Below are positions 40,801 to 62,289 of a stretch of 64,000 nucleotides of DNA, one piece after another (positions within the stretch are counted from its first letter, which is position 1; every line of letters starts with the position of its first letter). Below the pieces are notes generated by a model that had not been told where the DNA came from, did no database searches, and saw only the letters and a program-made list of their open reading frames with translations. Position numbers and translations under genes: made by a program. Origin of the DNA: Aminobacter sp. HY435 (GTDB lineage Bacteria; Pseudomonadota; Alphaproteobacteria; Rhizobiales; Rhizobiaceae); the NCBI RefSeq assembly GCF_027568395.1, contig NZ_JANKZL010000012.1:124001-188000 (forward strand), in the 5' to 3' direction.

Positions 40801-40819
40801 TTAATCGCTGGAGGGGCGA

Positions 40820-43002: not shown

Positions 43003-43019
43003 TCCGGCACGATACCTCA

Positions 43020-43046
43020 AAAGGCCGGGCTCAGCGCCCGGCCTTT
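43020..43046 (+). terminator. Stem-loop between DppA-type and asparaginase-type genes
   Basis: AAAGGCCGGGC and GCCCGGCCTTT pair over 11 bases around TCAGC, 17 bases after the binding-protein stop. Inside an operon this would limit transcription of the downstream gene or protect the upstream message. Confidence 0.65.
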
Positions 43047-43078
43047 CCAATTCTGAAACCGGTTGAAAGGACTGAAAC

Positions 43079-44550: not shown

Positions 44551-44566
44551 ATCTTGCATACAAGAT
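44551..44566. promoter_or_regulatory. GntR/MatR-like operator just upstream of the GntR gene
   Basis: ATCTTG-CATA-CAAGAT, six-base arms around CATA, with an extra half-site ATCTTGCAT at 44539-44547. The shape (TTGnATACAA) is typical of FCD-type GntR regulators and is close to the MatR operator of the rhizobial malonate genes as I remember it. It ends 11 bases before the start codon, so binding would block this transcript. Confidence 0.6.
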
Positions 44567-44577: not shown

Positions 44578-45285
44578 TTGAGCCTGGCGGCGAATATCAG
44601 CGATCGAATAATTGACGCGGCCCTCAGCCAGAAGTTTGAGCCGGGTGCGCGGTTGGGCGAGAAGGAAATCGCGTCCTTGTTCGAATGCAGCCGCACGATC
44701 GTTCGCGAGGCGATGGTCGATCTGGCGGCGCGAGGCATTGTTGTCGTCAGCCCGCGTAGGGGCTGGTTCTTTACCGAAGTCGACGTCAACAAGGCGCGCG
44801 AACTCTATGAGGCGCGCGAGATCATCGAGACCGGGCTGCTACGCAGTCTGGCCCGTCGCAATCGGACTCTCGAGGCGGCTCCGCTGGAGCGGCTGCGTGA
44901 GCATCTCCGGCTCCAGAAGGAGGCGGTCGAGGGCAGCGACGTAGGCCGCCGCAGCTACCTCCTGGGTGATTTCCACGTTTGCCTTGCCGAGTGCCTGGGC
45001 AACAGCATCCTCGCAGCCAAGCTTCGTGACCTGACTGTCCTGACCACGCTTTTCACGATGCGCCACCAGACGCCGAGCGACGCGCGCATGTCCTACAGCG
45101 AGCATGTTTCGGTGGTTGACGCCTTGGCGAGCAACGATGTCTCCGCCGCTGAGCAGCGCATGTGCGAGCATCTTGGGACGTGGGAGACGAAGGTGCACCT
45201 GGCGCGTGAAAGCGACCCTCTCGAAGGGTTGCGCAGGGCTTTGACCGCCCAAGGCAGCCTGCATTCGGACCGGGTCCGAGGCTGA
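44578..45285 (+). CDS. GntR-family (FCD-type) transcriptional regulator, possible MatR
   Basis: 235 residues from the TTG at 44578, chosen because GGAGG lies five bases upstream and the family-typical N-terminus begins here; ATGs further upstream would place the operator inside the gene. Residues 1-70 are the winged helix-turn-helix (GARLGEKEIASLFECSRT, IVREAMVDLAARGIVVVSP) and about 85-220 the all-helical FCD effector domain. First gene of the long operon that includes malonyl-CoA decarboxylase and malonyl-CoA synthetase; the malonate operon regulator MatR of rhizobia is of this class. Malonate or a conjugate as effector is inference. Confidence 0.88.
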   Translation: MSLAANISDRIIDAALSQKFEPGARLGEKEIASLFECSRTIVREAMVDLAARGIVVVSPRRGWFFTEVDVNKARELYEAREIIETGLLRSLARRNRTLEAAPLERLREHLRLQKEAVEGSDVGRRSYLLGDFHVCLAECLGNSILAAKLRDLTVLTTLFTMRHQTPSDARMSYSEHVSVVDALASNDVSAAEQRMCEHLGTWETKVHLARESDPLEGLRRALTAQGSLHSDRVRG

Positions 45286-45305
45286 CCGTGGGGGAGGGAG
45301 GACAA

Positions 45306-45725
45306 ATGGCGATACGAAACACCATGGCCTGGGTGGACAGCTTGCGGTCGCAGGTGCCCACGCTTTCACCGGCCGCGTTGGCAGAACGGAAGGCGCGTGG
45401 CGATGCGCTAACGCTGATCGATATCCGAGAACTTCAGGAATTGATCGACAGCGGAGCAATTCCCGGCTCCCACCATGTTCCGCGAGGGATGCTGGAGTTC
45501 TGGGCTGATCCGGCCATGGGCTACCATCGACGCTTCTTCACGGAGGACGCGGAATATGTCGTCTACTGCGCCGGAGGTGGGCGCTCGGTCCTGGCAGCGC
45601 TCGCGCTCATCGAGATGGGCTACGGCAAGGTCTGGCATCTGGATCGCGGATTCGGAGGCTGGCAGGAAGCGGGCCTTCCCGTCGATGATGTGGCAGCGAC
45701 GTCGCGCTGGCAGCGGAAGTCCTGA
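45306..45725 (+). CDS. Rhodanese-domain sulfurtransferase
   Basis: 139 residues from the ATG at 45306, with GGGAGG upstream. Single rhodanese domain: LIDIRELQELIDSGAIPGSHH, then VVYCAGGGRS with active-site Cys88, and GGWQEAGLP at the end. Such proteins carry a persulfide on the cysteine and pass sulfane sulfur to acceptors. It lies three bases before the first permease gene of a peptide importer, so sulfur handling is built into this uptake operon, in line with the C-S lyase and persulfide-dioxygenase-like genes at its end. Confidence 0.9.
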   Translation: MAIRNTMAWVDSLRSQVPTLSPAALAERKARGDALTLIDIRELQELIDSGAIPGSHHVPRGMLEFWADPAMGYHRRFFTEDAEYVVYCAGGGRSVLAALALIEMGYGKVWHLDRGFGGWQEAGLPVDDVAATSRWQRKS

Positions 45726-45728
45726 GCC

Positions 45729-46682
45729 ATGCTTACTTTCGCCTTGCGTCGTGCTGTTCTTGGCCTGCTGGTTCTTGCCACCGTGGCACTGCTTGTTTTC
45801 GTGGCAATTCGTTTCGTGCCTGGCGACATTGTAAACCAGCAATTGTCCGAAGCCGGCGCGGTGACGCCGGAGCTGCTGGAGCAGAAGCGGGCGCAGCTCG
45901 GGCTGGATCAGCCGATTGCCACGCAGTTCGGGCACTGGGCGAAGGGCGTGCTGGTTGGGGATCTGGGCAACTCGCTTTGGACCGGCCGACCGGTGGCCGC
46001 GCAGATCGGGGCCGCGCTCGTGCCGACCATGCAGCTGTCAATCCTGGCCATCGTGCTGGGGGCGGTCCTGGGTATCGGGGCAGGGGTTGGCGCCGCTTTG
46101 TGGCGAGGCACACCCGGAGACATGGTGCTGCGGGTCACCTCGACCGTGTTTCTCGCCATTCCGCAACTATGGCTGGGGCTTTTGACGCTGACTGGCCTCG
46201 CCGCCATCGGCTACTTCATCCCGCTGCCCTATCGCAGTTTCTCCAACGCACCGCTCGTCAACTTGCAGCAGGTCATCTTTCCGGCGGTCACCCTGTCGCT
46301 CGGGGTTGCGGCAGCGCTGTCGCGACTGACCCGCTCCGCCATGCTGGAGGTGATCGGGGCCGACTTCATTCGGGCAGCCAGAGCGCGCGGGGTTTCGTCC
46401 TACGGCATCTATGTCGGACATGGCCTCAAGAATGCGCTGATCCCGGTCATCACGCTGTTGGGGACGCAATTCGGGCATCTGCTTTCCGGCACTGTCATCA
46501 TCGAGCGTATCTTCAACATTCCAGGCCTTGGGAGCCTGCTGTTTGAAGCCGTCGCAACCCGGGACTACCCGGTCCTGCAGGCTGCAGTGCTGACCTATGG
46601 CCTCATCACCATCATCGTCAATCTGCTGGTTGATCTGTCCTATGGCATGGTCGATCCGCGTGTCCGGGAGGCGCGCTCATGA
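45729..46682 (+). CDS. Peptide ABC transporter permease (DppB type)
   Basis: 317 residues: FVPGDIVNQQLSEAG near the N-terminus, QLGLDQPIATQFGHW, GDLGNSLWTG, and the coupling loop DFIRAARARGVSSYGIYVGH. About six membrane spans. Starts three bases after the rhodanese stop and overlaps the following permease by four bases. Confidence 0.92.
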   Translation: MLTFALRRAVLGLLVLATVALLVFVAIRFVPGDIVNQQLSEAGAVTPELLEQKRAQLGLDQPIATQFGHWAKGVLVGDLGNSLWTGRPVAAQIGAALVPTMQLSILAIVLGAVLGIGAGVGAALWRGTPGDMVLRVTSTVFLAIPQLWLGLLTLTGLAAIGYFIPLPYRSFSNAPLVNLQQVIFPAVTLSLGVAAALSRLTRSAMLEVIGADFIRAARARGVSSYGIYVGHGLKNALIPVITLLGTQFGHLLSGTVIIERIFNIPGLGSLLFEAVATRDYPVLQAAVLTYGLITIIVNLLVDLSYGMVDPRVREARS

Positions 46683-47557
46683 CTCTTGCTGTCGAAGCCG
46701 CCGAGATGCCTCGGCGCAGCAGCCGTGCGCTCGCTATACTGCGCGCCCTGTTGCGTGACCCCGTGGGCTGCAGCGCTCTAATCATCCTGACCTTCGTGCT
46801 GTTGCTCGCGGTTCTTGCGCCATGGATCGCGCAATTCGACCCGCTGCACCAGGACAGGCGCGCCGTACTGAAAGCGCCGTCCCTGTTGCACTGGTTTGGC
46901 ACTGACGACATCGGTCGCGACGTCTTTTCACGTGTGTTGCATGGTACGCGCATCTCGCTGTTCGTCGGGTTGATGGTGGTGACCTTCACCATGATCGTCG
47001 GCGGCCTGATTGGGATGATCTCGGGCTATTTCGGTGGCTGGGTCGATACGATCATCCAGCGTGTGGTCGAGGCGCTTGACACCTTGCCGTCGCTGGTCCT
47101 GTCGCTGTTCATCGCGGCGATGCTGGGTCCAAGCGTCCGCAACGTCGTCATTGCCGTGACACTTGCCCAGATACCGCGCTTCGTTCGTGTCGTTCGCTCC
47201 GAAATGCTCAAGGTTCGCGGTCAGGATTTCATTGCCGCGGCGCAGGTCATCGGCGCGTCGCCGCTCAGGATCATGCTAACGCACGGCGCACCCAATCTCA
47301 TGCCGACGATGCTGGTGCTGGGGTCACTGGCCTTCGGCGTGGCGATCATGACCGAGGCAGCTCTCAGTTTCCTTGGTGTCGGGACGCCGCCCCCGCATCC
47401 GTCCTTGGGAACGATGTTGTCCCATGGAACCCGGTTCATTGGCACCGCACCCTGGTTGATTGTCTTTCCCGGGCTGATGCTGACCATCAGCGTGCTGGCA
47501 TTGAACCTCATTGGTGACGCGTTGCGGGACGTGCTCGACCCCCGTCACCAGCAATGA
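46679..47557 (+). CDS. Peptide ABC transporter permease (DppC type)
   Basis: 292 residues with the DppC hallmark FGTDDIGRDVFSRVLHGTRI and coupling loop DFIAAAQVIGASPLRIMLTH. Translationally coupled to the preceding dppB-type gene through ATGA. Partner of the peptide importer encoded at 45.7-51.3 kb. Confidence 0.92.
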   Translation: MTLAVEAAEMPRRSSRALAILRALLRDPVGCSALIILTFVLLLAVLAPWIAQFDPLHQDRRAVLKAPSLLHWFGTDDIGRDVFSRVLHGTRISLFVGLMVVTFTMIVGGLIGMISGYFGGWVDTIIQRVVEALDTLPSLVLSLFIAAMLGPSVRNVVIAVTLAQIPRFVRVVRSEMLKVRGQDFIAAAQVIGASPLRIMLTHGAPNLMPTMLVLGSLAFGVAIMTEAALSFLGVGTPPPHPSLGTMLSHGTRFIGTAPWLIVFPGLMLTISVLALNLIGDALRDVLDPRHQQ

Positions 47558-47625
47558 ATGTTCCGGGATAGGCGCGGACTTCCAAACCCGGAAACCAGTC
47601 AACAATCAAAACAAGAGGGAACACC

Positions 47626-49239
47626 ATGCTCGAACGAATGCTGCACTACGGAAATGTACTGGGACGCATCACCCCTGCGCTCGCGCTGTCTGCTTCGTTA
47701 GCCTTGCCGGGGATGGCAGTTGCCCAGGAGGCGCCGCGCCATGGCGGCAAGGTGACGATCAATGTCCACGGCGAAGCACCGAATTTCGACCCGCTGGCGA
47801 GTACGGAATTCGGCGTGCATTCACGGCTGGGCCTGGCATTGAACCGGCTCATCGAGTGGAAGACCGGGCCGGACATCGCCTACGGCCAATTCGTTCCCAA
47901 GCCCGCCCTGGCCGAGAGCTGGGAAGTTTCGGAGGACGGTCTCAAATACACGTTCCACCTGCGCCCGGACGTGGTTTGGCAGGACATTGCGCCCGTCGCG
48001 GGCCGGCCTTTCGTTGCGGCGGATGTGGTGGCTACCTACGAAGCGATCCGCAAGGGCGGCGTTCAGAAGGGGCAGCTGGCCGCTGTGGACACCATCACCG
48101 CACCTGATGACCACACGGTCGTGATGACCATGAAGCGGCCCAATGTCGTCTTGCTGCAGGCCCTTGCCCACCAGAACATGTGGATCCTTCCGCGAGAAGC
48201 CTTTGACGGTGGTTATGATCGCAACACCGTGGTCATCGGCACCGGACCGTGGATCCTGACCCAGAACGAGGCCGGCGTGGCGACGCGCTATGTTCGTAAC
48301 CCGAAGTATTTCGGCAAGAGCGATGCGGGCGAGCAGCTTCCCTATCTCGATGAAGTCGAGATCCTGCCGATCAAGGACCTGAACGCCCGCATCATGGCCT
48401 TCCGCTCCGGCCAGATCGATATCTGGTTCGGTCCGCTCAACCTGACCCAGATGGAAGGGCTGAAGCAGGCGGTTCCGGATATGAAGGATATCCAGACGGT
48501 AGCGAACACCCAGAGCGAGCTGTATCTCAACCCGACCTTCAAGCCGTTCTCGGATCTGCGCGTGCGCCAGGCAATCAACCTTGCCATCGACCGCCAGGGC
48601 CTTGGCGAGGTCGTCCGCGGTGGTGGTGGCATTGGCGGCGTCGTTGGCGCGGCCCTGGTCGCCCAAACACTGCCGCAAGAAGAACGCATCGCGCTCTACG
48701 GCACGCCAGACCACGAAAAGGCCAAGGCGTTGCTCGCCGAAGCCGGCTTCGCCGACGGCCTGACCTTCGAGCTTACGGTGCTGAACTACGGCGAGGAGTT
48801 TGTTCGAGAAGCCGAATGGATTCAGCAGGACCTCGCCGAAATCGGCGTCAAGGCCGAGATCAAGATGGTCGACATGGTGGCCGGACAGGCGCTGGGCAAG
48901 GAAGGCAACTTCCAGGGCATGTTCCTGATGATGAGCCCGTTTGCAGAGGCAAATGAGTATTTCACCACCCACTTCCTGAAAGAAGGCAACCGCAACTACA
49001 CCGGGATCGACGATCCGAAGCTGGTGGAAATGATCCGGGAACAGCAGGGCATCGCTGACCCCGCTGCGCGCCAGCAGAAGGTCTGGGAAATCCAGCGGTA
49101 CATCTATCAGAACATCCAGAATCCGCTGCCGATCTGGGCAGCCGTGCTGCTGCACCCTGCGCAGGCTCGCGTCGAGGGTTGGCATCCAATGCTGACCCAG
49201 GGCTTCCCGAGCCTGCCCGAGGTCTGGGTCACAAAATGA
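47626..49239 (+). CDS. Peptide ABC transporter substrate-binding protein (DppA type)
   Basis: 537 residues with a signal peptide ending GMAVA-QEAPRHGGKVTI. SBP_bac_5 family marks: NVHGEAPNFDPLASTEFG, PKPALAESWEV, YTFHLRPDVVWQD and HEKAKALLAEAGFADGL. It lies between the permease and ATPase genes of a complete importer and sets its specificity. The HGG-containing start resembles peptide and nickel/opine binders; the ligand is not readable. GAGGGA precedes the start. Confidence 0.92.
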   Translation: MLERMLHYGNVLGRITPALALSASLALPGMAVAQEAPRHGGKVTINVHGEAPNFDPLASTEFGVHSRLGLALNRLIEWKTGPDIAYGQFVPKPALAESWEVSEDGLKYTFHLRPDVVWQDIAPVAGRPFVAADVVATYEAIRKGGVQKGQLAAVDTITAPDDHTVVMTMKRPNVVLLQALAHQNMWILPREAFDGGYDRNTVVIGTGPWILTQNEAGVATRYVRNPKYFGKSDAGEQLPYLDEVEILPIKDLNARIMAFRSGQIDIWFGPLNLTQMEGLKQAVPDMKDIQTVANTQSELYLNPTFKPFSDLRVRQAINLAIDRQGLGEVVRGGGGIGGVVGAALVAQTLPQEERIALYGTPDHEKAKALLAEAGFADGLTFELTVLNYGEEFVREAEWIQQDLAEIGVKAEIKMVDMVAGQALGKEGNFQGMFLMMSPFAEANEYFTTHFLKEGNRNYTGIDDPKLVEMIREQQGIADPAARQQKVWEIQRYIYQNIQNPLPIWAAVLLHPAQARVEGWHPMLTQGFPSLPEVWVTK

Positions 49240-50270
49240 CTGCTGCCCCCGCTACTGCCGAGACCCGGATGCCCGTAAGCCACACTGCGGCAATGGATGA
49301 ACATCCCGTGCTTGAAGTCGACAGCCTTGCCATTTGCTACGGCAAGCTCGAAGTCTGCTCGGACGTGTCGTTGAACGTAAGACGGGGCGAGGCTCTGGCC
49401 CTGATCGGCGAATCGGGGTCCGGAAAATCGGTGACGGTGCTTGCCGTCACCGGATTGCTCGGACGTGGCGGGGCGGTTACCCGCGGTCGCATCATGCTGG
49501 ATGGCGAGGAAATCTCGCGCCTGAGCGACCGCGAACGGCGCCGCCGGGGGCTTCTCGGCAAGCGCATCGGGATGATCTTTCAGAATCCATCCCGGGCGCT
49601 CGACCCTGTCTTCACCATCGGTCAGCAATTGAACGAAGCCATCAGCCTCACCGGATTGTCCGGGAAGGAAGCGTTGCGACGCAAGGGGGCCGAGTGGCTG
49701 CGGCATGTCGGTCTGCCGGACCCGGAAGAAGCGCTGGATCGCTATCCGCACCAGTTGTCGGGCGGTCAGCGGCAGCGGGCGATGATCGCCATCGCGCTCG
49801 CCTCGGAGCCGGAACTTCTTATCGCGGACGAGCCCACCACCGCGCTGGACGTCACTATCCAGGCGCAGGTGCTCAATCTGATCCGCCGCCTGCAGCGCGA
49901 ACTCAACCTTGCGCTGGTCATCGTCACCCACGACTTCGGCGTGGTTGCAGCCATGGCCGATCGCGTTGCCGTCATGTATGCGGGCCAGGTGGTGGAGACG
50001 GGGACGGTGGCAAACATCATCAACGCACCGCGCCACCCCTACACCCGCGCCCTGCTGGCAAGCCTGCCGACCGGCGTGCCGGGCGCCAGGATTGCCGCAT
50101 TGCCCGGCTCGGTGCCCTCGGCAGTTGCCATGCCCACGGGGTGCCGTTTTCACCCGCGCTGCCCGATAGCAATAGACCGATGCTCACAGGAAACTCCCCA
50201 GTTGGAGTCTGCGGCCGGCGGTCATCAGTTGCGCTGTCTCAGGGCTGAGGAGATCGCCCGTCATGTCTGA
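49236..50270 (+). CDS. Peptide ABC transporter ATPase (DppD type)
   Basis: 344 residues from the ATG at 49236, overlapping the binding-protein stop (ATGA); the frame is open upstream. Walker [10 protein letters not shown], signature LSGGQRQRAMIA and Walker [13 protein letters not shown] are present. The C-terminus has the oligopeptide-type cysteine cluster (CRFHPRCPIAIDRCS), which in some members binds an iron-sulfur cluster. Confidence 0.92.
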   Translation: MTAAPATAETRMPVSHTAAMDEHPVLEVDSLAICYGKLEVCSDVSLNVRRGEALALIGESGSGKSVTVLAVTGLLGRGGAVTRGRIMLDGEEISRLSDRERRRRGLLGKRIGMIFQNPSRALDPVFTIGQQLNEAISLTGLSGKEALRRKGAEWLRHVGLPDPEEALDRYPHQLSGGQRQRAMIAIALASEPELLIADEPTTALDVTIQAQVLNLIRRLQRELNLALVIVTHDFGVVAAMADRVAVMYAGQVVETGTVANIINAPRHPYTRALLASLPTGVPGARIAALPGSVPSAVAMPTGCRFHPRCPIAIDRCSQETPQLESAAGGHQLRCLRAEEIARHV

Positions 50271-51267
50271 TGCCGCAGCCAGCCTGTTGTCCCTCAAGGA
50301 TGTGAGCGTCCGCTACCCCATTCGGCGTGGGTTCTTCCAACGCGTCGTCGGCCACGTCGGAGCGGTGGAAAAGGTCAGCTTCGACGTCATGCGTGGCGAG
50401 ACGCTGGCACTGGTGGGCGAATCCGGTTGCGGAAAGAGCACACTCGGCCGCGCCATCCTGCAGTTGGAGGAGGTTGCCGACGGCAAGATTTCCACGTCCT
50501 ATGGCCAGGGTGGCAGTCGTCGTGACAACGCCCGGCGCGCGCAGGTCGTGTTTCAAGATCCTCTGGGCTCGCTCGATCCGCGCTGGACAATCGGCAACCT
50601 TATCGGCGAAGGGCTGGACGTTCACCGGATCGCCCGTGGAGCCGAGCGTGACGCGCGGGTGCGAGAACTTCTGGCTCAGGTCGAGCTTCCAGCGTCTTCG
50701 TTCTACAAGTTCCCGCATCAGCTCTCTGGCGGCCAGCAACAGCGCGTCGCAATCGCGCGTGCGCTGGCTTTGCGGCCGCAACTGATCGTTCTGGACGAGG
50801 CAACGTCGGCGCTCGACGTTTCCGTCCAGGCGCAAATACTCAACCTGATGAAGGACCTGCAGGTCGAGTACGGCCTGACCTATCTGTTCATTTCGCACGA
50901 CCTGACCGTGGTCGGCCAGTTCGCGGACCGCGTAGCGGTGATGTATCTCGGCCGGATCATGGAGATCGGGCGGGTCGGGGACGTCCTGTCCAATCCGCGT
51001 CATCCCTATACGAAGGCGCTGCTCGCTTCGTCGCTGAAGGTCGATCCCGACGCGCGTATCGAGACCGTTGCCTTGCTCAAGGGTGACGTGCCGAGCCCTC
51101 GCAATCCGCCAAGCGGTTGCCGTTTTCGCAGCCGCTGCCCGTTGGCGCAGCCTGCTTGCGCCGACCTCGTGCACCACATGGTGGCGGCGCCGAATGGTCG
51201 CCAGACGGCCACGTGCATTGCTCAAGATGACAACCAGCAACTCTTTCAAGGCAAGACCAATGACTGA
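50263..51267 (+). CDS. Peptide ABC transporter ATPase (DppF type)
   Basis: 334 residues: [25 protein letters not shown] and [12 protein letters not shown], followed by the family C-terminal motif [19 protein letters not shown]. It overlaps both neighbours by eight bases and completes the importer as partner of the DppD-type ATPase. Confidence 0.92.
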
Positions 51268-52120
51268 TGATCCCCTGCACATCGATCCGAACTGGAAATC
51301 GGCCACTGTCGACCTTGATGGCGTGAAAATCCGTTATCTCGACAATGGCGGCACCGGCCCGGTGTTGATCTGCCTGCACGGCACTTCGATGACGGCGCAT
51401 GCCTGGGGGCACCTTGGAAGCACCTTGAAGGACCAATTCCGAGTGATCGCCGTGGACATGCGCGGTCACGGCGCTTCCGACAGGCCAAACACGACCTATA
51501 CCATCGCCGAGCTGGCGGGGGACATCGCCAGGCTGGCGGAAAGCCTTGACCTCAAGGGCATCACCCTGATGGGCAGCTCGGTCGGCAATCAGGTCGCGGT
51601 TTCGTTTGCGGCATCCAACCCTGATCGCGTCGCCGGCATGATCCTTTCGGACCCGAGCTTCTTCGTTTCCGATGCCGAAATCGTCAAATACCTTCGTTCG
51701 CACCACACGCGCCGCCGCAACTACCCGACGCGAGCCGAGGCCGAAGCTTTTGCTCGCGCCCTGCCGCAGAGGGCAGGCCTGAGCGACCAGATGCACGGCC
51801 TGGCCATGCAAGGCGACTTCCGCCAGGAGGACGATGGCAGCTGGAGCTGGGCCTATGACCTGCTGGCGATCACCAAGCTCTTCTTCAACCTCTCGACCGA
51901 TCAGTCGGGCGATATCTCTGCAATCCATGTGCCGGTGCTGGTGCTGAACGCCGATCGTTCCAACGTGCTGAGCGGCAACCAGGCCGAAGAGCTGACCCGC
52001 GCGTTTTCCAATGCGCGCCTGGAAGTCGTGTCGAACAGCAACCACACGATCTGGGGAGATCAACCCGTGCTTCTGGCCAATACGGCCCGGGCCTTTCTGA
52101 GGGACCTGCATAGCGCCTGA
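51260..52120 (+). CDS. Alpha/beta hydrolase
   Basis: 286 residues with the LHGTSMTAHAW oxyanion block, DMRGHGASD, nucleophile elbow GSSVGNQ and C-terminal catalytic His in NSNHTIWGD. It is a general esterase/lactonase/C-C hydrolase fold, closest in pattern to epoxide- and ester-hydrolase-like proteins of catabolic operons. It overlaps the DppF-type gene by eight bases, so it probably acts on the imported compound first, for example removing an ester group. Confidence 0.82.
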   Translation: MTDDPLHIDPNWKSATVDLDGVKIRYLDNGGTGPVLICLHGTSMTAHAWGHLGSTLKDQFRVIAVDMRGHGASDRPNTTYTIAELAGDIARLAESLDLKGITLMGSSVGNQVAVSFAASNPDRVAGMILSDPSFFVSDAEIVKYLRSHHTRRRNYPTRAEAEAFARALPQRAGLSDQMHGLAMQGDFRQEDDGSWSWAYDLLAITKLFFNLSTDQSGDISAIHVPVLVLNADRSNVLSGNQAEELTRAFSNARLEVVSNSNHTIWGDQPVLLANTARAFLRDLHSA

Positions 52121-52142
52121 CGGGCGGTTGCAGGAAAACACC

Positions 52143-53801: not shown

Positions 53802-53811
53802 GGAGAACGCA

Positions 53812-55725
53812 ATGAACGCGATGAACAGGGAAGCAGCGCCTTACGACGTGATGATCGCGCGCTCGGTGAAATGCGTGGCCCGCGACGGGGTCAAGCTTTC
53901 GGTCGACATCTACCGCCCGGCCCGCAACGGAGAGCCGCTGCCGGGGCCGTTTCCGGCCGTCGTCACCCGTTCGCCCTATGACACCCGCTCGGGCAAGGGC
54001 CCGTCGGGGCAGGCCAAGAACGGCGAGTATTTCGCCCGCCGCGGCTACATCTACGCCGTCCAGGATTCGCGGGGCCGCTTCGATTCCGAAGGCGATTTCG
54101 TCCTTCTCGACCAGAAGGAAGGCGAAGACGGCCACGACGTCATCGAATGGCTGGCCACGCTGCCCTATTGCAACGGCATGATCGGTACCCAGGGCAGCTC
54201 GCTGCGCGCCTGGAACCAGACCGCCACCGCGATCAACCGCCCGCCGCACCTGAAGGCGATGTGGGTCAACCAGGGCGGCTCCAATGCATTCATGCATGCG
54301 CTGCGCCACCACGGCACGCTGGAACTGCGCTGGCTGGCCTGGCTCGTGACCAACAGCATCCACTCGCAGGAGGCGCACGCCGATCCGGCGCTCCAGGCGC
54401 AACTCGTCCGCAATTCCGAGAACATGTATGAGTGGTTCCGCCGCTTGCCGTGGAGCGAAGGAAACAGCCCGCTGTCGCCGCTTCCGAAGTGGGAGAAGCT
54501 GGCGCTGGAATATTATCGCAACGCCGATTTCAGCGATTACTGGGTGAATCCGACCCTCAATCCCGAGGCTTATCGCGACCAGACAGCCGACGTGCCGACT
54601 GTCTATTCCGGCGCCTGGTACGACACCTATCCGCGCGCGACGATCAAGAACTTCACGGACCTGGAAGGCAGGCTCTCCCATCAGTACCTGTTGATGGCGC
54701 CTGGCGTTCATGGCGGTCCAAATCTCGACAATCCGCTGGTCGGCAATGTCGACATGGGGCCGACGGCGCCGATCAAGGGCAACCTCGCCAAGGACCGCAT
54801 GGAACTGATGCTTCGGTTCTTCGATCGCTTCCTGAAAGCCGACGAAAGCGCCTGGGTCGACCAGCCGAAAGTCAGCTATTTCCACATGGGCGGCAATGGC
54901 AGCAAGAATGCCGCCGGTCGCCTCGTCCATGGCGGCGAATGGCGCAGTTCCGAGCAGTGGCCACCGCTGGGGGGTGTGCCAGAGGACTGGTACCTGCATT
55001 CGGACGGCTCGCTGTCGTCGACGCTGCCCGACGCCTCGGAACCCAGCCGCTTCACCTTCGACCCGTCGAAGCCGATGCCGACGGTTGCCTCGAACGTATC
55101 GTCGATGACACAGAACCTGCCGCCGTTCCCCCGGATGATGCGCACCGGCGACCCGATCACGCTGCGCGAAAGCCTCGTGCTGCAGGGCGCGGGCGACCAG
55201 GTCACGCACAAGGGCGTTCACGGGGCAGAGGCGCCCTATGGCGATCTCTCTGACCGGCCTGACGTTCTGGCCTTCACCACGCGGCCTTTCGCCGAGGATA
55301 CCGACGTCGTCGGCGGCCCCGAGGTCGAGGTCTACCTGTCCTCGGACGCACCGGACACCGACATCTTCGTGCAACTGCAGGACGTCTATCCGGAAAGCGA
55401 GGCCTGGCCCGATGGCTATCGGATGAATCTCTGCGAGAGCATCTTCCGCGTCCGCTATCGCGACGGCTTCGAGAAGCCGACCTTGATGAAGGAGGGCGAG
55501 GTCGTGAAGGTACGCTTCGAACTTTACCCGACTTCGAATGTCTTCAAGGCGGGCCACCGGCTGCGGGTGCTGGTATCGTCGTCCTCGTTCCCGAGGTTCG
55601 ACGTAAACCCGAACACCGGCGAAGCGATCGGCTACCATACCCACATGCGCAAGGCTCTGAATGCGATCCATCACGACCCTCAGCACCCTTCCAGGGTGAT
55701 CCTGCCGATCATGCGTCGGGGCTAG
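53812..55725 (+). CDS. CocE/NonD-family hydrolase (X-Pro dipeptidyl-peptidase S15 type)
   Basis: 637 residues: an alpha/beta-hydrolase domain with SPYDTRSGKG and the nucleophile region IGTQGSSLRAWNQ (Ser130; the usual SYxG is altered to SLRA), then a C-terminal jelly-roll domain (GPEVEVYLSSDAPDTD). Family members cleave cocaine esters, acylate amino acids as alpha-amino acid ester hydrolases, or cleave X-Pro peptides. There is no signal peptide, so it acts in the cytoplasm. Its place in the operon suggests hydrolysis of an ester or amide of the imported conjugate. Confidence 0.87.
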   Translation: MNAMNREAAPYDVMIARSVKCVARDGVKLSVDIYRPARNGEPLPGPFPAVVTRSPYDTRSGKGPSGQAKNGEYFARRGYIYAVQDSRGRFDSEGDFVLLDQKEGEDGHDVIEWLATLPYCNGMIGTQGSSLRAWNQTATAINRPPHLKAMWVNQGGSNAFMHALRHHGTLELRWLAWLVTNSIHSQEAHADPALQAQLVRNSENMYEWFRRLPWSEGNSPLSPLPKWEKLALEYYRNADFSDYWVNPTLNPEAYRDQTADVPTVYSGAWYDTYPRATIKNFTDLEGRLSHQYLLMAPGVHGGPNLDNPLVGNVDMGPTAPIKGNLAKDRMELMLRFFDRFLKADESAWVDQPKVSYFHMGGNGSKNAAGRLVHGGEWRSSEQWPPLGGVPEDWYLHSDGSLSSTLPDASEPSRFTFDPSKPMPTVASNVSSMTQNLPPFPRMMRTGDPITLRESLVLQGAGDQVTHKGVHGAEAPYGDLSDRPDVLAFTTRPFAEDTDVVGGPEVEVYLSSDAPDTDIFVQLQDVYPESEAWPDGYRMNLCESIFRVRYRDGFEKPTLMKEGEVVKVRFELYPTSNVFKAGHRLRVLVSSSSFPRFDVNPNTGEAIGYHTHMRKALNAIHHDPQHPSRVILPIMRRG

Positions 55726-55729
55726 GCTG

Positions 55730-57175
55730 GTGGAAACGGACCCCCGCGCTTTGCTTGACGCCGAGATCGCCGGCCTTGCTCCGGCCTTCAAGGCGGTGGC
55801 TGACAAGATCTGGTCAACGCCGGAACTGTGCTTCGCCGAGCATCGCTCCGTTGCGCTGCAGATCGATGCGATGGCGGCGCAGGGGTTCCGCATCGCGCCG
55901 CGATTGGCCGGACTCGATACGGCCTTTTCAGCGGAGTGGGGCGAGGACGGTCCGGTCATCGCGTTGTTGGGTGAATTCGACGCCCTTCCCGGCCTCAGCC
56001 AGATCGCCGGCAGCGCACAGCAACAGCCGCTGGAGCCGGGCGGCAACGGTCATGGCTGCGGGCACAACCTCCTCGGTGGCGGATCGATGCTGGCCGCCGC
56101 GGCGCTGGTCCGCGTGCTGAAGCAGACCGGCATCCGAGCCCGGATTCGCTACTATGGCTGCCCTGCCGAAGAAGGCGGCTGGGGCAAGGGATACATGGTG
56201 CGTGCCGGGGCTTTCGATGATGCCGCGGTGGCGATCGGTTGGCATCCCGGCGTTTTCAACGGTGTTCGTGCCCGCTCGACCCTGGCAGTTGTCAACCGTG
56301 CCTATCGCTTCCGGGGCACGGCTGCCCACGCAGCCATGGCGCCGCATCTGGGCCGCAGTGCGCTCGACGCGGTTGAGCTGATGAACATCGGCGCCAACTT
56401 CCTGCGCGAGCACGTGCCTCCCGATGTCCGTCTCCACTATGCCATCACCGATGCCGGTGGCGTCGCCCCAGCTGTCGTGCAGGCTCGGGCGGAAGTGCTC
56501 TACATGATCCGCGCCCCGGAGCTCGATGAGGTCCATGATCTGGTCGCCCGCGTCGATGACATCGCCCGCGGCGCAGCGCTGATGACGGGCACCGAGGTGG
56601 AGTTCCTGCCCCAAGGGGGCGCTTCGAACGTGCTGCCGAATGCTGTGCTTTGCCATGTCATGCATGGCGTCATGCAAAGGCTGGGACGCCTTGATTTTAC
56701 CTATGGCGAGCGCATCTTCGCCGAGGAAATCCGCTCATCGCTTCCGGCTCAGGGCAGTGTCGACCGGCGCGCGCGCGCCGAGCAAGACGTGCTTCTGCCG
56801 TCGGGCGAAGGGCGGCTGCCGCTGCACGAAGGGCTGCGTCCCTTTGACGGGCGAATGACCCAGGGATCCGGCTCGACGGACGTAGGCGACGTCAGCTGGG
56901 TCGTTCCTGTTGTCGAGTGTTCGACGGCGACCTGGGCCGTGGGTACGCCAAGCCATAGCTGGCAAGCCGTGGCACAGGGTTGCAGTCCCGCTGCGCACAG
57001 GGGAATGGTGCGGGCAGCCGCTACCATGGCAGGCACGGCACTGGAATTGATCGCCAATCCGTCATTGATCCAGCAGGCTCGCGAGGAACACCAGGAACGC
57101 CGCGATGGGCGGATGTATGTATCGCTGGTACCAGCGGACACCCTAGGTCCATTCCGATCTGGTGGCGACCTCTAA
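55730..57175 (+). CDS. M20-family amidohydrolase (AbgB-like)
   Basis: 481 residues starting at GTG, four bases after the CocE-type gene. M20/M40 metal site: LLGEFDALPGLSQ, GNGHGCGHNLLGGGSM, CPAEEGGWGKG and AIGWHPG. Closest in pattern to AbgB (p-aminobenzoyl-glutamate hydrolase subunit) and N-acyl-amino-acid amidohydrolases, which cleave an N-acyl or aroyl amide to a free amino acid plus acid. It is followed directly by malonyl-CoA decarboxylase and malonyl-CoA synthetase, so an N-malonyl amide is an attractive substrate. Confidence 0.87.
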   Translation: METDPRALLDAEIAGLAPAFKAVADKIWSTPELCFAEHRSVALQIDAMAAQGFRIAPRLAGLDTAFSAEWGEDGPVIALLGEFDALPGLSQIAGSAQQQPLEPGGNGHGCGHNLLGGGSMLAAAALVRVLKQTGIRARIRYYGCPAEEGGWGKGYMVRAGAFDDAAVAIGWHPGVFNGVRARSTLAVVNRAYRFRGTAAHAAMAPHLGRSALDAVELMNIGANFLREHVPPDVRLHYAITDAGGVAPAVVQARAEVLYMIRAPELDEVHDLVARVDDIARGAALMTGTEVEFLPQGGASNVLPNAVLCHVMHGVMQRLGRLDFTYGERIFAEEIRSSLPAQGSVDRRARAEQDVLLPSGEGRLPLHEGLRPFDGRMTQGSGSTDVGDVSWVVPVVECSTATWAVGTPSHSWQAVAQGCSPAAHRGMVRAAATMAGTALELIANPSLIQQAREEHQERRDGRMYVSLVPADTLGPFRSGGDL

Positions 57176-57233
57176 CGGAAAGAATTTCGCGACACACTGG
57201 TGTCAATGGCGCTGAGTTCGGGAGTTTCGACAT

Positions 57234-58532
57234 TTGGCCATGTTCTTTGCCGACCTGATGGCAACGCTGTTCGAAAGGCGCTCGGAGTTGCACCGTGCGT
57301 CCGGTACCGGGTCGATAGCCGAGCGGATCGAGGCACTCCTGTCAGGGGAGGGCGAGGTTTCGGGCATCCGGCTCGCGGGCGAAATCCTGTCGCGATATCA
57401 GGCAATGGACGATGCGGCGAAGCGCAACTTCTTCGCCCATCTGGCCGACCACCTGGACCTTGATCCAGATAGGTTGCATGCCGCTGTCCAGGCCTACCGC
57501 AACGACCGGAGCGCCGAGACGCTGAACCGGTTGTCGCGTGAAGCGGAACCGCGCCGGCAGGAGTTGCTGCGTCGTCTTAACCAGGCACCGGGCGCCACCG
57601 CCTGGCTGGTGCGGATGCGTCGCGATCTCTTGGCGCTGATCCCGCAGGCGCCCGAGCTTGGCGTGATCGATGCTGATTTTCGGCACTTGTTTTCCAGCTG
57701 GTTCAACCGCGGCTTTCTCGTGCTGCGGCAGATCGACTGGAATACGCCGGCCAATATCCTCGAAAAGATCATCGAATACGAAGCCGTCCACGCGATCAAT
57801 GACTGGCAGGAGCTTCGGCGCAGGATGTTGCCGCGCGACCGTCGTTGCTTTGCCTTCTTCCATCCGGCAATGCCGGAGGAACCGCTCATCTTCGTCGAAG
57901 TGGCCCTGTGCCGCGGCATACCCAATTCAGTGCAGGATCTTCTCGGTGAAGACCGCAATCCGCTGCATGAAAATGAAATCGACACGGCAGTCTTCTACTC
58001 GATCTCGAACTGCCAGGAAGGCCTGAGGGGCATCTCCTTTGGCAATCTTCTCATCAAGCAGGTCGTCGAGGAACTGGCACGAGACGTTCCGCACTTGAAG
58101 ACGTTTGTGACGCTTTCGCCCGTTCCGGGACTGAATCGCTGGTTGCGGAAAGGTTCGGCAGACAGGCCTGAACTGGCCGCGTTGCTCGCGCGTAGCCAAG
58201 GCTGTGATCCCCATGCGATGGCCGGTGACGCGGATTTGCTTCGGCGGCATTGCGCTGAGTATCTGCTGCAAGCAAAGCGGCCGGAAGGCCTTCCTTACGA
58301 CTCCGTCGCACGGTTCCATCTCGCCAATGGCGCGTCGCTGCACGACGTGCATCCATTGGCAGACACGTCTGCCAATGGATGGGCGCAGTCGTCGACGGTG
58401 ATGGTGAACTACCTCTACGATCTGCCGTCGGTAAGCCGTAACAGCGAGCGCTATGCAACTGCTGGAACCGTTTCCGCATCGCGGCAGGTCGAACAGCTCT
58501 TACGCAAGGACAGGAAAAGACGCCGTGCCTAA
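57234..58532 (+). CDS. matA: Malonyl-CoA decarboxylase
   Basis: 432 residues from a TTG at 57234 (GGGAG nine bases upstream), or two fewer from the ATG at 57240. The protein converts malonyl-CoA to acetyl-CoA and CO2. Landmarks: an N-terminal four-helix domain and a GNAT-like catalytic domain with FYSISNCQEGLRGISFGNLL and ARFHLANGASLHDVHPLAD then VNYLYDLP, carrying the catalytic Ser and His. In rhizobia this enzyme (MatA) is normally paired with MatB and a malonate carrier MatC; here MatB overlaps its end by eight bases but no MatC is present. Confidence 0.95.
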   Translation: MAMFFADLMATLFERRSELHRASGTGSIAERIEALLSGEGEVSGIRLAGEILSRYQAMDDAAKRNFFAHLADHLDLDPDRLHAAVQAYRNDRSAETLNRLSREAEPRRQELLRRLNQAPGATAWLVRMRRDLLALIPQAPELGVIDADFRHLFSSWFNRGFLVLRQIDWNTPANILEKIIEYEAVHAINDWQELRRRMLPRDRRCFAFFHPAMPEEPLIFVEVALCRGIPNSVQDLLGEDRNPLHENEIDTAVFYSISNCQEGLRGISFGNLLIKQVVEELARDVPHLKTFVTLSPVPGLNRWLRKGSADRPELAALLARSQGCDPHAMAGDADLLRRHCAEYLLQAKRPEGLPYDSVARFHLANGASLHDVHPLADTSANGWAQSSTVMVNYLYDLPSVSRNSERYATAGTVSASRQVEQLLRKDRKRRRA

Positions 58533-60036
58533 TCCGCTTTACGATCATCTGGTGGCCCCGCTTGCGACGCGCAGCAGCACATTTCTTGTTGACGCGCAGG
58601 GTCACGAAATCATGGGCGCAAGCCTGTACCAAACTGCCATGTCGCTGGCTTCCGCGTTGACCGGCCTCGGCCTGAAATCCGGTGACCGGATGGCGGTGCA
58701 GGTGGAGAAGACGCCCGAGGCGCTGGCGCTTTACTGTGCAGCCATAACGACGGGCATCGTCTTCCTGCCGCTCAACACTGCCTATACGGCGGCGGAGGTG
58801 GAATACTTCGTATCCGATGCGGGTGCGTCGCTTCTGGTGGGAGATCCTGCCAAGGCCGAACTGCTGTCGCCGGTGGCGCAGCGCCACGGTGCCCGGTTCG
58901 AGACGCTCGGCGCCGATGGCGAAGGCAGCCTTCGGGATCGCGCGAGGGCGGCCGGGACCGAGTTCGCGCCGGTGACACGATCGGGCGATGACCTCGCCGC
59001 CATTCTCTACACCTCAGGCACAACGGGACGTTCGAAGGGCGCAATGCTGAGCCACGAGAACCTGTTGTCCAATGCCCGGGTGCTTGTCCGCGAGTGGCGC
59101 TTCGTGGCAGACGACATCTTGCTGCACGCGCTGCCTATCTTCCACACGCATGGGCTATTCGTTGCGTCCAATGTCGTGATGCTGTCGGGCGGGTCCATGA
59201 TCTTCCTGCCGGGCTTCAAGGCCGATGAAGCGCTCAAGTGGCTGCCTCGCGCCACCACGATGATGGGGGTGCCGACCTTCTACACCCGACTTCTCGATAC
59301 GCCCGCCTTCACCGGCGACCTGACGCGGCATATGCGCCTGTTCACCTCCGGATCGGCACCGCTCCTGGCCGAAACGCATACGCGTTTCGAAGAGCGTACC
59401 GGTCACCGTATCCTGGAGCGATACGGCATGACCGAAACCAACATGAACACGTCGAACCCGTATGACGGCGAGCGACGCGCAGGAACGGTGGGACGCGCCT
59501 TGCCCGGCGTCGAGGTCAAGATCACCGATCCCGAAACCGGTGGTGTCGTGCAGCAAGGGGAAGCGGGCGTGATCGAAGTGCGCGGCCCCAATGTATTCAA
59601 GGGCTATTGGGGCATGCCCGAGAAGACTCGCGAGGAACTGCGCGAGAACGGCTTCTTCATCACGGGCGATATCGGCACGATGGATGCTGATGGTTATGTC
59701 ACGATCGTCGGACGCCAGAAGGATCTCATCATCACCGGCGGCTACAATGTCTATCCCAAGGAGATCGAACTCATCCTGGATGAACAGCCGGGCGTTCTGG
59801 AAAGTGCCGTCGTTGGCGTGCCACATCCCGATTTCGGCGAGGCCGTGATTGCGGTCCTGGTCGCGCGGCCGGGCGAGACGATCGACGCCGCCAGGGTGGC
59901 GACGGCGATGGGCGAGCGCCTGGCCAAGTTCAAGCAGCCGAAGCATATCGCCGTCATTGCGGACCTGCCGCGAAACACGATGGGCAAGGTGCAGAAGAAC
60001 CTGCTTCGACAGCAGTTCGTGTCCCTTTTCGCCTGA
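58525..60036 (+). CDS. matB: Malonyl-CoA synthetase
   Basis: 503 residues from the GTG at 58525, which overlaps the decarboxylase stop (GTGCCTAA) and gives the normal MatB length; an upstream ATG at 58453 would extend it by 24 unconserved residues. It activates malonate with ATP and CoA. MatB-specific stretches include VQVEKTPEALALYCA, LPLNTAYT, AILYTSGTTGRSKGAMLSH, LPIFHTHGLFV, RYGMTETNMNTSNPY and PRNTMGKVQKN. Together with the decarboxylase it turns malonate into acetyl-CoA. Confidence 0.95.
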   Translation: MPNPLYDHLVAPLATRSSTFLVDAQGHEIMGASLYQTAMSLASALTGLGLKSGDRMAVQVEKTPEALALYCAAITTGIVFLPLNTAYTAAEVEYFVSDAGASLLVGDPAKAELLSPVAQRHGARFETLGADGEGSLRDRARAAGTEFAPVTRSGDDLAAILYTSGTTGRSKGAMLSHENLLSNARVLVREWRFVADDILLHALPIFHTHGLFVASNVVMLSGGSMIFLPGFKADEALKWLPRATTMMGVPTFYTRLLDTPAFTGDLTRHMRLFTSGSAPLLAETHTRFEERTGHRILERYGMTETNMNTSNPYDGERRAGTVGRALPGVEVKITDPETGGVVQQGEAGVIEVRGPNVFKGYWGMPEKTREELRENGFFITGDIGTMDADGYVTIVGRQKDLIITGGYNVYPKEIELILDEQPGVLESAVVGVPHPDFGEAVIAVLVARPGETIDAARVATAMGERLAKFKQPKHIAVIADLPRNTMGKVQKNLLRQQFVSLFA

Positions 60037-60190
60037 ACGTTTCCGCGGATAGCAGTGGCTGGCCTGTGAGCCCAGGCAAACTGGATATTTTGGGTTTGCA
60101 TCTTGCCAATGTACGAAGCAGAAGCGTGCTTCAATCGCACCCTCGACGACGATCAGTATTCCAGAACTTGCACGGCATCCGGAGATTTCA

Positions 60191-61363
60191 ATGAATTTTG
60201 ACGACAACATAGACCGTCGCGGAACCCATTGCTCGAAGTGGGACATGATGGAGCCGCTTTACGGTCTGTCCTCAGACGACGCGTTGCCGATGTGGGTAGC
60301 CGACATGGATTTCCGTCCTCCCGCAGCCGTGCAGGAAGCCTTGGAAAGGATGCTGCGACACGGCATCTACGGCTATTTCGGCGATGAACGCGCGTATCGG
60401 GAGGCAATCTGCTGGTGGATGGCGAACCGTCATGGCTGGCAGTTGGATCCGGCCACAATCTTCACCACCCACGGGCTTGTGAACGGCACTGCCCTTTGCG
60501 TCGACACCTGGACTGAACCGGGTGACGCGGTGGCTGTGATGACGCCGGTCTATCATGCGTTTGCTCGCGTCGTGCGCGCGGCCGGACGCGAGGTGCGCGA
60601 GTTGCCCCTGGTCCTGGAGGATGGCCGCTACCGGATGGACTTCGACGGCTGGAACGATCGCATGACCGGTCGGGAGAAGATGCTCATCCTGTGCTCGCCG
60701 CATAATCCCGGCGGCCGCGTATGGACGCTGGAGGAATTGCGCGGGGTGGCCGATTTTGCCGCACGTCACAACCTCATCCTGGTGTCGGACGAAATCCATC
60801 AGGATCTGGTGTTTCCCGGTCAGCGGCACATTCCCATGACCATTGCCGCACCCGAAGCGGTAGAGCGTCTGGTCATGATGACCGCCTCGACCAAGACCTT
60901 CAACATCGCGGGCGCTCATATCGGCAATGTCATCATCGCCGATGAAAAACTGAAGAATGCCTTCGCCAGGCGCCACCTTGCGCTCGGAATCTCGCCCAAT
61001 TCCTTCGGGATGCATATGGTCACGGCTGCATATTCGCCCGAAGGGGCGGCGTGGCTCGATGGTCTGGTACGGTATCTGGACAACAACCGCAAAGCCTTCG
61101 ACGCGGGCATCGCCACAATTCCGGGCCTGCGTTCCATGCCGCTGGAGGCAACCTACCTGGCCTGGGTGGACGGATCAGGGGCGGGGCTCAGCAGCCAAGA
61201 GTTCATCATGCGGGTGGAAAAGGACGCCCGCATCGCGACAAACCATGGTCATACGTTCGGCCTGGGCGGCGACGGTTTCCTGCGCTTCAATTTTGCCTGC
61301 TCACGAGCGATGATAGATGAAGCCGTGACGCGCCTTAAGTCTGTGTTTTCTGACCTGCAATAG
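60191..61363 (+). CDS. MalY/PatB-family PLP C-S lyase (cystathionine beta-lyase-like)
   Basis: 390 residues of fold-type I. The family opening PMWVADMDFRPP is present, with SPHNPGG (Asn172), SDEIH (Asp200) and the PLP lysine Lys235 in TASTKTFNIAG. MalY/PatB enzymes eliminate the sulfur group from cystathionine and from cysteine S-conjugates, yielding pyruvate, ammonia and a thiol. It follows matB after 154 bases; GAAGCA-N6-TGCTTC at 60115-60132 in that gap may be a hairpin or operator. A plain aminotransferase, or the related C-N lyase type that cleaves mimosine, is the main alternative. Confidence 0.85.
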   Translation: MNFDDNIDRRGTHCSKWDMMEPLYGLSSDDALPMWVADMDFRPPAAVQEALERMLRHGIYGYFGDERAYREAICWWMANRHGWQLDPATIFTTHGLVNGTALCVDTWTEPGDAVAVMTPVYHAFARVVRAAGREVRELPLVLEDGRYRMDFDGWNDRMTGREKMLILCSPHNPGGRVWTLEELRGVADFAARHNLILVSDEIHQDLVFPGQRHIPMTIAAPEAVERLVMMTASTKTFNIAGAHIGNVIIADEKLKNAFARRHLALGISPNSFGMHMVTAAYSPEGAAWLDGLVRYLDNNRKAFDAGIATIPGLRSMPLEATYLAWVDGSGAGLSSQEFIMRVEKDARIATNHGHTFGLGGDGFLRFNFACSRAMIDEAVTRLKSVFSDLQ

Positions 61364-61392
61364 CAGGTGGATCCAAACAGGAATACACTCCC

Positions 61393-62289
61393 ATGCCCCC
61401 GCTCTTCGCATTCACGCCCACCATGCTGGTCAAACCGGAAGTCATTCCGTTCTTCGACGAGGCCACCAACACGATCACTTACGTCGTCAAGGATCCGGAC
61501 TCGGATGCCTGTGCCGTCATTGATTCCGTCATGGACATCGACTATGCGGCCGGCCGCATCACACATGATGGCGCCGACAAGATAGTCGCCCATATCCATG
61601 ACAACGGCTGGTCCCTGGAATGGCTGATAGAGACCCACATCCATGCGGACCACCTGTCGGCGGCGCCCTATATTCAAGAGAAGCTCGGCGGACGACTTGG
61701 TGTCGGGGAGCACATCACCGTCATCCAGAACACGTTCGGCAAGATTTTCAACGAAGGCACCGACTTTCAGCGGGATGGCAGCCAATTCGATCAGCTGTTT
61801 GCCGAGGGCGACAGCTACACGATTGGAACCATGACCGTGCACGTCATGCACACGCCCGGCCATACACCTGCCTGCATGACCCATGTGATCGGTGATGCCG
61901 CCTTCGTCGGCGACACCCTGTTCATGCCGGATGGCGGAACGGCGCGCGCCGATTTTCCTGGAGGCGATGCCCGTACGCTGTATCGCTCCATCCAGCGCGT
62001 ATTGGCGCTTCCCGACGCGATGCGACTGTTCATGTGCCACGACTACGGACCGAACGGACGCGACATCAGATGGGAGACAACTGTCGCCGACGAGAAGGCA
62101 CACAACATCCACGTCGGCAACGGCATGGATGAGGACGCATTCGTGAAGATGCGCGAGGCGCGCGATGTAACGCTAAGCATGCCGAAGCTCATCATCCCGT
62201 CGCTACAGGTCAACATGCGCGCGGGACAACTTCCGTCCGCGGACAAGGATGGCAAGACCTTTCTCAAGGTTCCCATCAATACACTCTGA
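61393..62289 (+). CDS. Metallo-beta-lactamase-fold persulfide dioxygenase/Blh-like protein
   Basis: 298 residues. Metal motif THIHADHLSAAPYI (His82, His84, Asp86, His87), then HTPGHTPACMTH and FVGDTLFMPDGGTARADFPG, whose GDxLF and ARxDF blocks are typical of ETHE1-type persulfide dioxygenases and the rhizobial Blh protein. These oxidise glutathione persulfide to sulfite with a single iron. Placement 29 bases after a C-S lyase gene makes sulfide or persulfide detoxification likely. A glyoxalase II-like thioesterase is the alternative. Confidence 0.82.
   Translation: MPPLFAFTPTMLVKPEVIPFFDEATNTITYVVKDPDSDACAVIDSVMDIDYAAGRITHDGADKIVAHIHDNGWSLEWLIETHIHADHLSAAPYIQEKLGGRLGVGEHITVIQNTFGKIFNEGTDFQRDGSQFDQLFAEGDSYTIGTMTVHVMHTPGHTPACMTHVIGDAAFVGDTLFMPDGGTARADFPGGDARTLYRSIQRVLALPDAMRLFMCHDYGPNGRDIRWETTVADEKAHNIHVGNGMDEDAFVKMREARDVTLSMPKLIIPSLQVNMRAGQLPSADKDGKTFLKVPINTL

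Follow-up and report, generated by a model that had tools for sequence, protein, structure and literature searches.

The Gene Cluster

This report concerns a cluster of 15 genes in a 64,000-nucleotide stretch of DNA from Aminobacter sp. HY435 (contig NZ_JANKZL010000012.1, positions 124,001 to 188,000; hereafter the window), which we read, with slightly more confidence than doubt, as a catabolic operon under GntR control whose substrate would be an acylated sulfur compound of peptide size taken up from outside. The cluster occupies positions 44578–62289, all on the + strand, and is densely packed. Neighbouring genes mostly overlap or lie no more than about 30 bp apart, the larger gaps being found 5' of the binding protein (68 bp), the malonyl-CoA decarboxylase (about 64 bp) and the PatB-family lyase (154 bp). 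An original prediction, made from the sequence alone, had proposed it as a catabolic system for N-malonylated cysteine or amino-acid conjugates; the open reading frame list and the family searches of the window agree gene by gene with the content and order given there.

The first gene (44578..45285) specifies a GntR/FCD regulator (PF07729, PF00392) with a TTG start preceded by GGAGG, at the predicted start of the cluster. It is followed by a single-domain rhodanese (45288..45725; PF00581) with the sequence CAGGGR, presumably its active loop. Five genes specify a peptide-type ATP-binding cassette (ABC) importer: permeases resembling DppB (45729..46682; PF00528) and DppC (46679..47557; PF00528, PF12911), a solute-binding protein of the SBP_bac_5 type (47626..49239; PF00496) whose best solved relative is AgaA (6hlx, 107 bits), and ATPases resembling DppD (49236..50270; ATG start used) and DppF (50263..51267), each with PF00005 and PF08352 (oligo_HPY) domains.

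Four enzymes come next. The alpha/beta hydrolase (51260..52120; PF00561), conserved in the core operons described below, has an approximate start, placed at the first methionine of the homologous part. The acyl-CoA synthetase (52143..53801; PF00501, AMP-binding) resembles MbcS and acetyl-CoA ligases; its best NCBIfam model is MbcS (NF047394), at 460 bits far under the cut-off of 850. A CocE/NonD hydrolase (53812..55725) scores over the cut-off of TIGR00976, matches cocaine esterase at 198 bits and has S130, D271 and H300, which we take to be a catalytic triad. The M20 amidohydrolase (55730..57175; TIGR01891, 217.7 bits against a cut-off of 153.75) is the last gene of the conserved core. Its residues C110, H112, E147/E148, H172 and H409, presumably metal ligands, are invariant in 9/9 aligned orthologs, and its nearest solved relatives are HmrA and Xaa-Arg dipeptidase.

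The remaining genes specify a malonyl-CoA decarboxylase (MCD; 57240..58532), with PF05292 and PF17408 (MCD and MCD_N) over cut-off and the sole copy found in this genome; a malonyl-CoA synthetase, MatB (58453..60036; NF005702, 797 bits against a cut-off of 558), whose homologous part starts at about 58525–58528 and so overlaps MCD; a pyridoxal phosphate-dependent (PLP) C-S lyase (60191..61363); and a metallo-beta-lactamase (MBL) protein resembling persulfide dioxygenases (SDO; 61393..62289). MCD-MatB pairs are called MatAB below. The lyase exceeds the cut-off of TIGR04350 (404 against 340 bits), its closest solved relative is PatB (6qp3, 314 bits), and K235, within STKTF, is presumably the PLP lysine; the prediction of a C-S lyase is upheld, with the MalY label giving way to the PatB type. 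The SDO, also rightly anticipated, can be refined to the Blh-type subgroup. It has the ETHE1/Blh persulfide dioxygenase fold and the motifs HIHADH (at 82), HTPGH (at 153) and GD (at 173), where we assume HxHxDH, HTPGH and GD to be metal motifs. Its match to NF040641 (393 bits) covers positions 140–423 of 423 and falls below the full-length cut-off of 625: it is the dioxygenase half of Blh without DUF442, and not the full bifunctional sulfurtransferase/dioxygenase, in which DUF442 and the dioxygenase are fused. Solved relatives of the SDO are 9g8t, 4ysk and 4efz.

Regulation

A probable GntR operator, CTTGCAT-N6-CTTGCATACAAG (44537..44566, +), ends just 5' of the ribosome-binding site of the regulator gene. 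The motif CTTGYAT-N7-TTGCATACAAG is found, with small changes, 5' of GntR in 11/11 aligned operons; the operator is also seen 5' of GntR in locus L082, and CTTGTATACAAG stands at the equivalent position in Ponticoccus. When the whole window was scanned, positions 44537–44566 gave the sole above-threshold site, with no core operator 5' of MCD, PatB or SDO. A second GntR site, giving PatB or SDO a promoter of their own, was considered, and none was found in the window scan. A consensus promoter scan, using a consensus not built for these promoters, returned one promoter-like site, on the opposite strand inside the synthetase gene. Since the only operator lies 5' of GntR, the window genes from GntR through SDO would most simply form a single transcript.

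Distribution of the Core

The order GntR-(rhodanese)-five-gene peptide importer (DppBCADF)-alpha/beta hydrolase-acyl-CoA synthetase-CocE-M20, here termed the core, occurs in 13 distinct genomes or plasmids of about seven lineages, and can safely be placed in the Hyphomicrobiales and Rhodobacterales. Per-gene identity across the 13 carriers is approximately 59–93%, the broken pieces in locus L083 being set aside, and the rhodanese is present in 11/13 operons. Scanning named genomes with CocE as the anchor returned 12 loci, nine of them with the core: Devosia (2), a Rhodobacteraceae metagenome-assembled genome (MAG), Oryzicola mucosus, Aquamicrobium LC103, Pararhodobacter zhoushanensis, Corticibacterium, a Novosphingobium MW5 record and Pseudaminobacter salicylatoxidans. 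To these are added the window, a congener (G156), Devosia G579 and plasmid p-SCP3 of Ponticoccus alexandrii. Duplicate records were counted once (G412 = G547, G610 = G546, G028 = G549, G070 = G550, G127 = G554). The other three CocE loci (SAR324 and two Beijerinckiaceae; CocE 58–61% identical) have different surroundings.

M20 relatives sought in 151 genomes of the same family fell into a close group at 68–73% identity (the window together with G127, G028 and G070) and a common group no more than 55% identical. G127, G028 and G070 keep the core order and end at M20, with 0.8 kb visible 3' of M20 in G127. The core is rare: at an E-value of 1e-150, CocE was detected in 2/397 genomes of the order, the window's among them.

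The 13 carriers are not independent of one another. Loci L078 and L083 are 94% identical over 15.8 kb, flanks included, as are Oryzicola and Corticibacterium at 92% over 12.8 kb of the core region. The Novosphingobium MW5 record (L083), labelled as Sphingomonadales, is the one 94% identical to P. zhoushanensis, and for several of its core genes the matches are fragmented; it may be mislabelled, a recently transferred piece, or affected by sequencing errors. In Ponticoccus alexandrii (L142, 4466–21307) the core adjoins repABC on plasmid p-SCP3 and is followed by a homogentisate cluster. In the SAR324 MAG (L079), acyl-CoA synthetase and CocE (57–61%) were the only core enzymes found, adjoining a distant peptide importer; such a pair may be an older nucleus of the system.

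The Malonate and Lyase Genes

Conservation of gene order, proposed as a check on the original prediction, holds for the core in all 13 carriers and for MCD-MatB-PatB directly after M20 in 3/13, namely the window, P. salicylatoxidans and the congener G156, where the extended unit lies on a 310-kb contig. In the other ten, no match to MCD, MatB, PatB or SDO was found 3' of M20 within the visible sequence (3.3 kb in L078, 0.8 kb in L082). As 10/13 core operons thus end at M20 as far as visible, neither malonate use nor C-S cleavage is established as a function of the core.

This ending at M20 favours an explanation in which the core degrades another acylated compound, without malonate or cysteine, and MatAB and PatB (and SDO), being general-purpose genes, came to lie behind it in a single lineage, where they use its promoter. 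The window MCD, as the sole copy found, may serve all malonate use of the cell, and G156 has a second PatB, 91% identical to that of the window, outside any operon copy. This gene lies on the main contig (L085, 5206–6375) next to an AraC regulator, and the 34 kb around it hold only distant homologs of the importer (46–51%) and CocE (38%). Against such a settlement stands the retention of the arrangement. All pairs of the three extended loci, compared over 7–20 kb per side, share in their flanks only ABC-ATPase paralogs at 25–34% identity. Relative to the window, MCD, MatB and PatB show synonymous divergence (dS) of 0.79–1.18 (about 0.9) and a ratio of nonsynonymous to synonymous divergence (dN/dS) of 0.055–0.130, a range like that of the core genes. 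Retention in non-syntenic places at a dS of about 0.9, with dN/dS of 0.06–0.13, indicates that the extension has been preserved together with the core as a unit. In the family sample, the MCD next in similarity is 64% identical and has no MatB match within 18 kb. A chance run of neighbours was rejected for 14/15 genes by co-conservation and dN/dS, the place of SDO resting on its linkage in Devosia. Together these results suggest that most of the gene combination is real and selected.

The second argument against a mere passenger role for MatAB-PatB, which was kept as a rival, comes from Devosia, where a remote member of the PatB family, MatAB and the SDO subtype of the window cluster with the core independently. 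An operon of MCD, MatB and a PatB-like gene precedes the core GntR in D. elaeis and Devosia sp. TGS_PRO12, with the PatB-like gene 6–10 kb and MCD 9–13 kb from the core. The enzyme is 30–32% identical to the window PatB, and its best family is still TIGR04350. Its 84% clade is present in 3/136 Devosiaceae genomes, in all of which the core is 6–10 kb away. In the third, Devosia G579, an MBL protein, SulP and an SDO (74–75% identical) lie between the PatB-like lyase and the core. An MBL protein that is not of the SDO type stands directly 3' of the PatB-like gene in two Devosia (L120, 10878–11864; L111, 5361–6278).

No PatB-like gene (E-value 1e-8) was seen at six MatAB loci of genomes without the core, nor at those of Aquamicrobium and Oryzicola (where the contig ends 0.9 kb past MatB), and none was seen in Corticibacterium. 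The Oryzicola MatAB lies 21 kb from the core; this counts for little, because Corticibacterium, with a core 92% identical, has a similar MatAB on another contig. The Devosia loci lend independent support to a tie of a PatB-family lyase and MatAB to the core and weaken the general-purpose explanation, which we regard as unlikely.

Persulfide Dioxygenase and Malonate Genes in Carriers

A Blh-type SDO was found in 11/11 core genomes searched. The subtype of the window (75–100% identity; 74–75% in G579) is confined among these to the window, D. elaeis and G579, and in all three it lies no more than 8 kb from the core; in the remaining eight the best SDO is 49–61% identical and none is at the core. 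The search covered core genomes only, and the tie may not be exclusive. A second SDO (49%) is present on contig 7 of the window's genome.

MCD was detected in 9/10 core genomes searched as against 55/147 non-carriers in the family sample (Fisher p 0.0014, uncorrected for kinship). The background is one family, from which four carriers had been removed (151 to 147); among the carriers duplicates and non-core loci were removed, Pararhodobacter, G579 and Ponticoccus were not included, and the one miss is the MAG G548. The MatAB loci of genomes without the core have a GntR nearby in 6/6 cases and DctP, of a tripartite ATP-independent periplasmic (TRAP) transporter, in 5/6, one neighbour having been tested in the sixth. 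Beside MCD-MatB in the window there is no DctPQM or separate GntR, the genome at large not having been searched for a malonate transporter; MatAB without an adjacent transporter or GntR fits malonate being produced inside the cell, as had been suggested.

The ACAD Module

A TetR-SDR-ACAD-APH module adjoins the core in three Devosia (L102, L111 and L120) and stands directly after PatB in P. salicylatoxidans (L084, 18365–21385). Its ACAD and APH proteins match both halves of ACAD11, which, like bacterial LvaA/LvaC, handles 4-hydroxyacyl-CoAs according to the available text of PMC12440821. If the module is functional, it hints, speculatively, at a 4-hydroxy acid or a lactone as the acid set free. 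The module is present in 7/11 core carriers and 21/147 genomes of the family sample (p 0.0005, uncorrected for kinship). It was set aside as a part of the cluster, being common and, in the window's genome, on another contig (contig 3, L137).

Proposed Function

What the analysis establishes is the gene complement, its joint conservation and purifying selection, a conserved operator-like site, and the repeated occurrence of MatAB, a PatB-type lyase and SDO in linkage with the core; co-transcription, the substrate class and each of the following reactions are what we infer. The binding-protein ABC importer would take up an acylated sulfur compound, CocE, the alpha/beta hydrolase and the M20 enzyme would split its ester and amide bonds, and the acyl-CoA synthetase would activate the released acid. 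In the three carriers of the extended form, malonate would in addition be freed by M20 or an esterase, and MatB and MCD would convert it to acetyl-CoA. PatB would split the amino part, a cysteine S-conjugate, into pyruvate, ammonia and a thiol or sulfide, and the rhodanese and SDO would pass the sulfur on to sulfite. Judging by gene neighbourhood, the importer probably belongs together with malonate use, C-S cleavage and persulfide oxidation, and on this point the original interpretation is likely to be right; it does not extend to most core carriers, which are without the extension.

Several further observations, besides the ending of most core operons at M20, weigh against this function. The three extended carriers represent one lineage, and the rhodanese is absent from the core operon in Oryzicola and Corticibacterium. 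Neither P. salicylatoxidans nor G156 has an SDO next to the operon, and the link of the SDO subtype to the core was counted in core genomes only. The 154-bp gap before PatB could hold a promoter, none being found there by the consensus scan described above. The Devosia PatB-like enzymes score 274–282 bits, below the TIGR04350 cut-off of 340, and in G579 the gene has no adjacent MatAB. The Devosia MatAB-PatB genes have their own divergent GntR, and the site scan found no core operator at them. A separate regulon for the lyase and the metallo-hydrolase, which would count against the original prediction, is therefore partly encountered in Devosia, although the window sequence gives it no support.

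The simplest single compound that would use all parts of the extended operon is an N-malonyl-cysteine S-conjugate, but as the exact substrate it is unlikely. A dedicated route for such conjugates would consist of import, demalonylation by M20, conversion of malonate to acetyl-CoA by MatAB, C-S cleavage by PatB and persulfide oxidation, with the released acid activated to its CoA form and, where the ACAD11-like module adjoins (Devosia, P. salicylatoxidans), degraded as a 4-hydroxyacyl-CoA, the form to be expected from thiol adducts of lactones or 4-hydroxyalkenals. In this complete form the proposal is decidedly doubtful, a little more so than the substrate itself.

The rhodanese in 11/13 operons and the SDO point to sulfur, and would also fit a thio-compound or S-conjugate whose acyl group is a different one (N-acetyl, succinyl, peptide or ester), malonate coming from elsewhere in the molecule or from the medium. 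The nearest solved relatives of M20 are uninformative on a malonyl group, and the known S-(2-succino)cysteine pathway works through N-acetyl groups, with YxeP as the deacetylase, as set out in the available text of PMC9706529. By itself such a substrate does not account for three genomes having MCD-MatB placed between M20 and PatB, or for the MatB that adjoins a PatB-like gene in two Devosia, and we hold it to be as unlikely as the malonyl conjugate in its exact form. We consider it very improbable that the substrate is the N-malonyl derivative of an amino acid that is not a cysteine conjugate, for instance plant N-malonyl-1-aminocyclopropane-1-carboxylate (malonyl-ACC) or the N-malonyl-D-amino acids, including that of D-methionine. 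M20 and MatAB would suffice for it, and plants make malonyl-ACC and malonylate D-methionine (PMC10452086, available text); PatB, rhodanese, SDO, CocE and the acyl-CoA synthetase would have no explanation, and the genes at 44578–62289 include no recognisable ACC deaminase or D-amino-acid enzyme.

In plants, many xenobiotics and reactive metabolites end up bound in cysteine conjugates, and the recycling of N-malonylated ones by soil bacteria is what is at stake for the sulfur-compound operon proposed here. The operon of P. salicylatoxidans DSM 6986 provides a testable genetic handle. Even with a different substrate, a conserved catabolic unit to which the same kinds of partners were added in two lineages, and which at least one plasmid carries, offers a definite object of study.

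Upstream Genes

Positions 36336–44038 hold a second peptide-type importer (fused ATPases, DppC and DppB) with a creatininase-family gene, faced by a MarR-like regulator, a solute-binding protein (41344–43002) and a beta-aspartyl-peptidase-like gene (43079–44038); this may be another uptake unit, for amides or isoaspartyl peptides. These genes were excluded as part of the operon, since the window binding protein and peptidase have no match upstream of the core in P. salicylatoxidans (12 kb) or G156 (7 kb). Most other carriers have about 1 kb or less visible upstream of the core; in Ponticoccus, pieces of solute-binding protein (30–43%) lie 6 kb upstream. Further 5' in the window (30589–36225) are a sugar-type ABC importer (Peripla_BP_4, ATPase, BPD_transp_2) and an FGGY kinase.

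Comparison with Known Systems

N-malonylated cysteine S-conjugates are an end product of glutathione-dependent detoxification in plants. The malonylation of plant cysteine conjugates, and the poorly established later fate of the products, are noted in the available text of PMC5127126. No bacterial N-malonyl-cysteine pathway was found in searches limited to a collection of open-licence PubMed Central papers, which leaves uncontradicted the earlier view that the pathway is undescribed.

The deacetylase YxeP of the Bacillus subtilis yxe operon is presumably related to the M20 type. Like that operon and its 2SL variant, which break down S-(2-succino)cysteine as described in the available text of PMC9706529, the window cluster joins an ABC importer to an enzyme that may deacylate N-acyl-cysteine S-conjugates. 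In the yxe system the acyl group is acetyl, added inside the cell by YxeL, a monooxygenase or lyase breaks the bond, and the parts named in that text do not include MatAB, CocE, acyl-CoA synthetase, PatB or SDO (PMC9706529). Conversely, the families of the window cluster include no monooxygenase (YxeK), 2SL-type lyase or N-acetyltransferase (YxeL), and it is not of the yxe type.

What we take to be the rhizobial-type mat operon comprises MatR, MatA and MatB with a transporter. The adjacent, overlapping MCD and MatB of the window are like it; unlike it, they are embedded in a peptide-importer operon and have no adjacent GntR or DctP, which sets the cluster apart from that class.

With the bigR operon and its Blh protein (PMC5823870, available text) the cluster shares a Blh dioxygenase half and a sulfur transferase. 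It differs in that the transferase is a separate rhodanese at the opposite end of the operon, with no fused DUF442, and no BigR was recognised in the window cluster.

The formation of skin odour by corynebacteria and staphylococci proceeds through dipeptide import, an M20 acylase and a PatB-type C-S lyase. The same three kinds of protein are present here, PatB itself being the closest solved relative of the window lyase; we know of no case in which the skin-odour parts share one operon with MatAB, CocE and SDO. By its gene complement, the window cluster appears to resemble the known catabolic operons for N-acyl-cysteine conjugates, as a variant of them.

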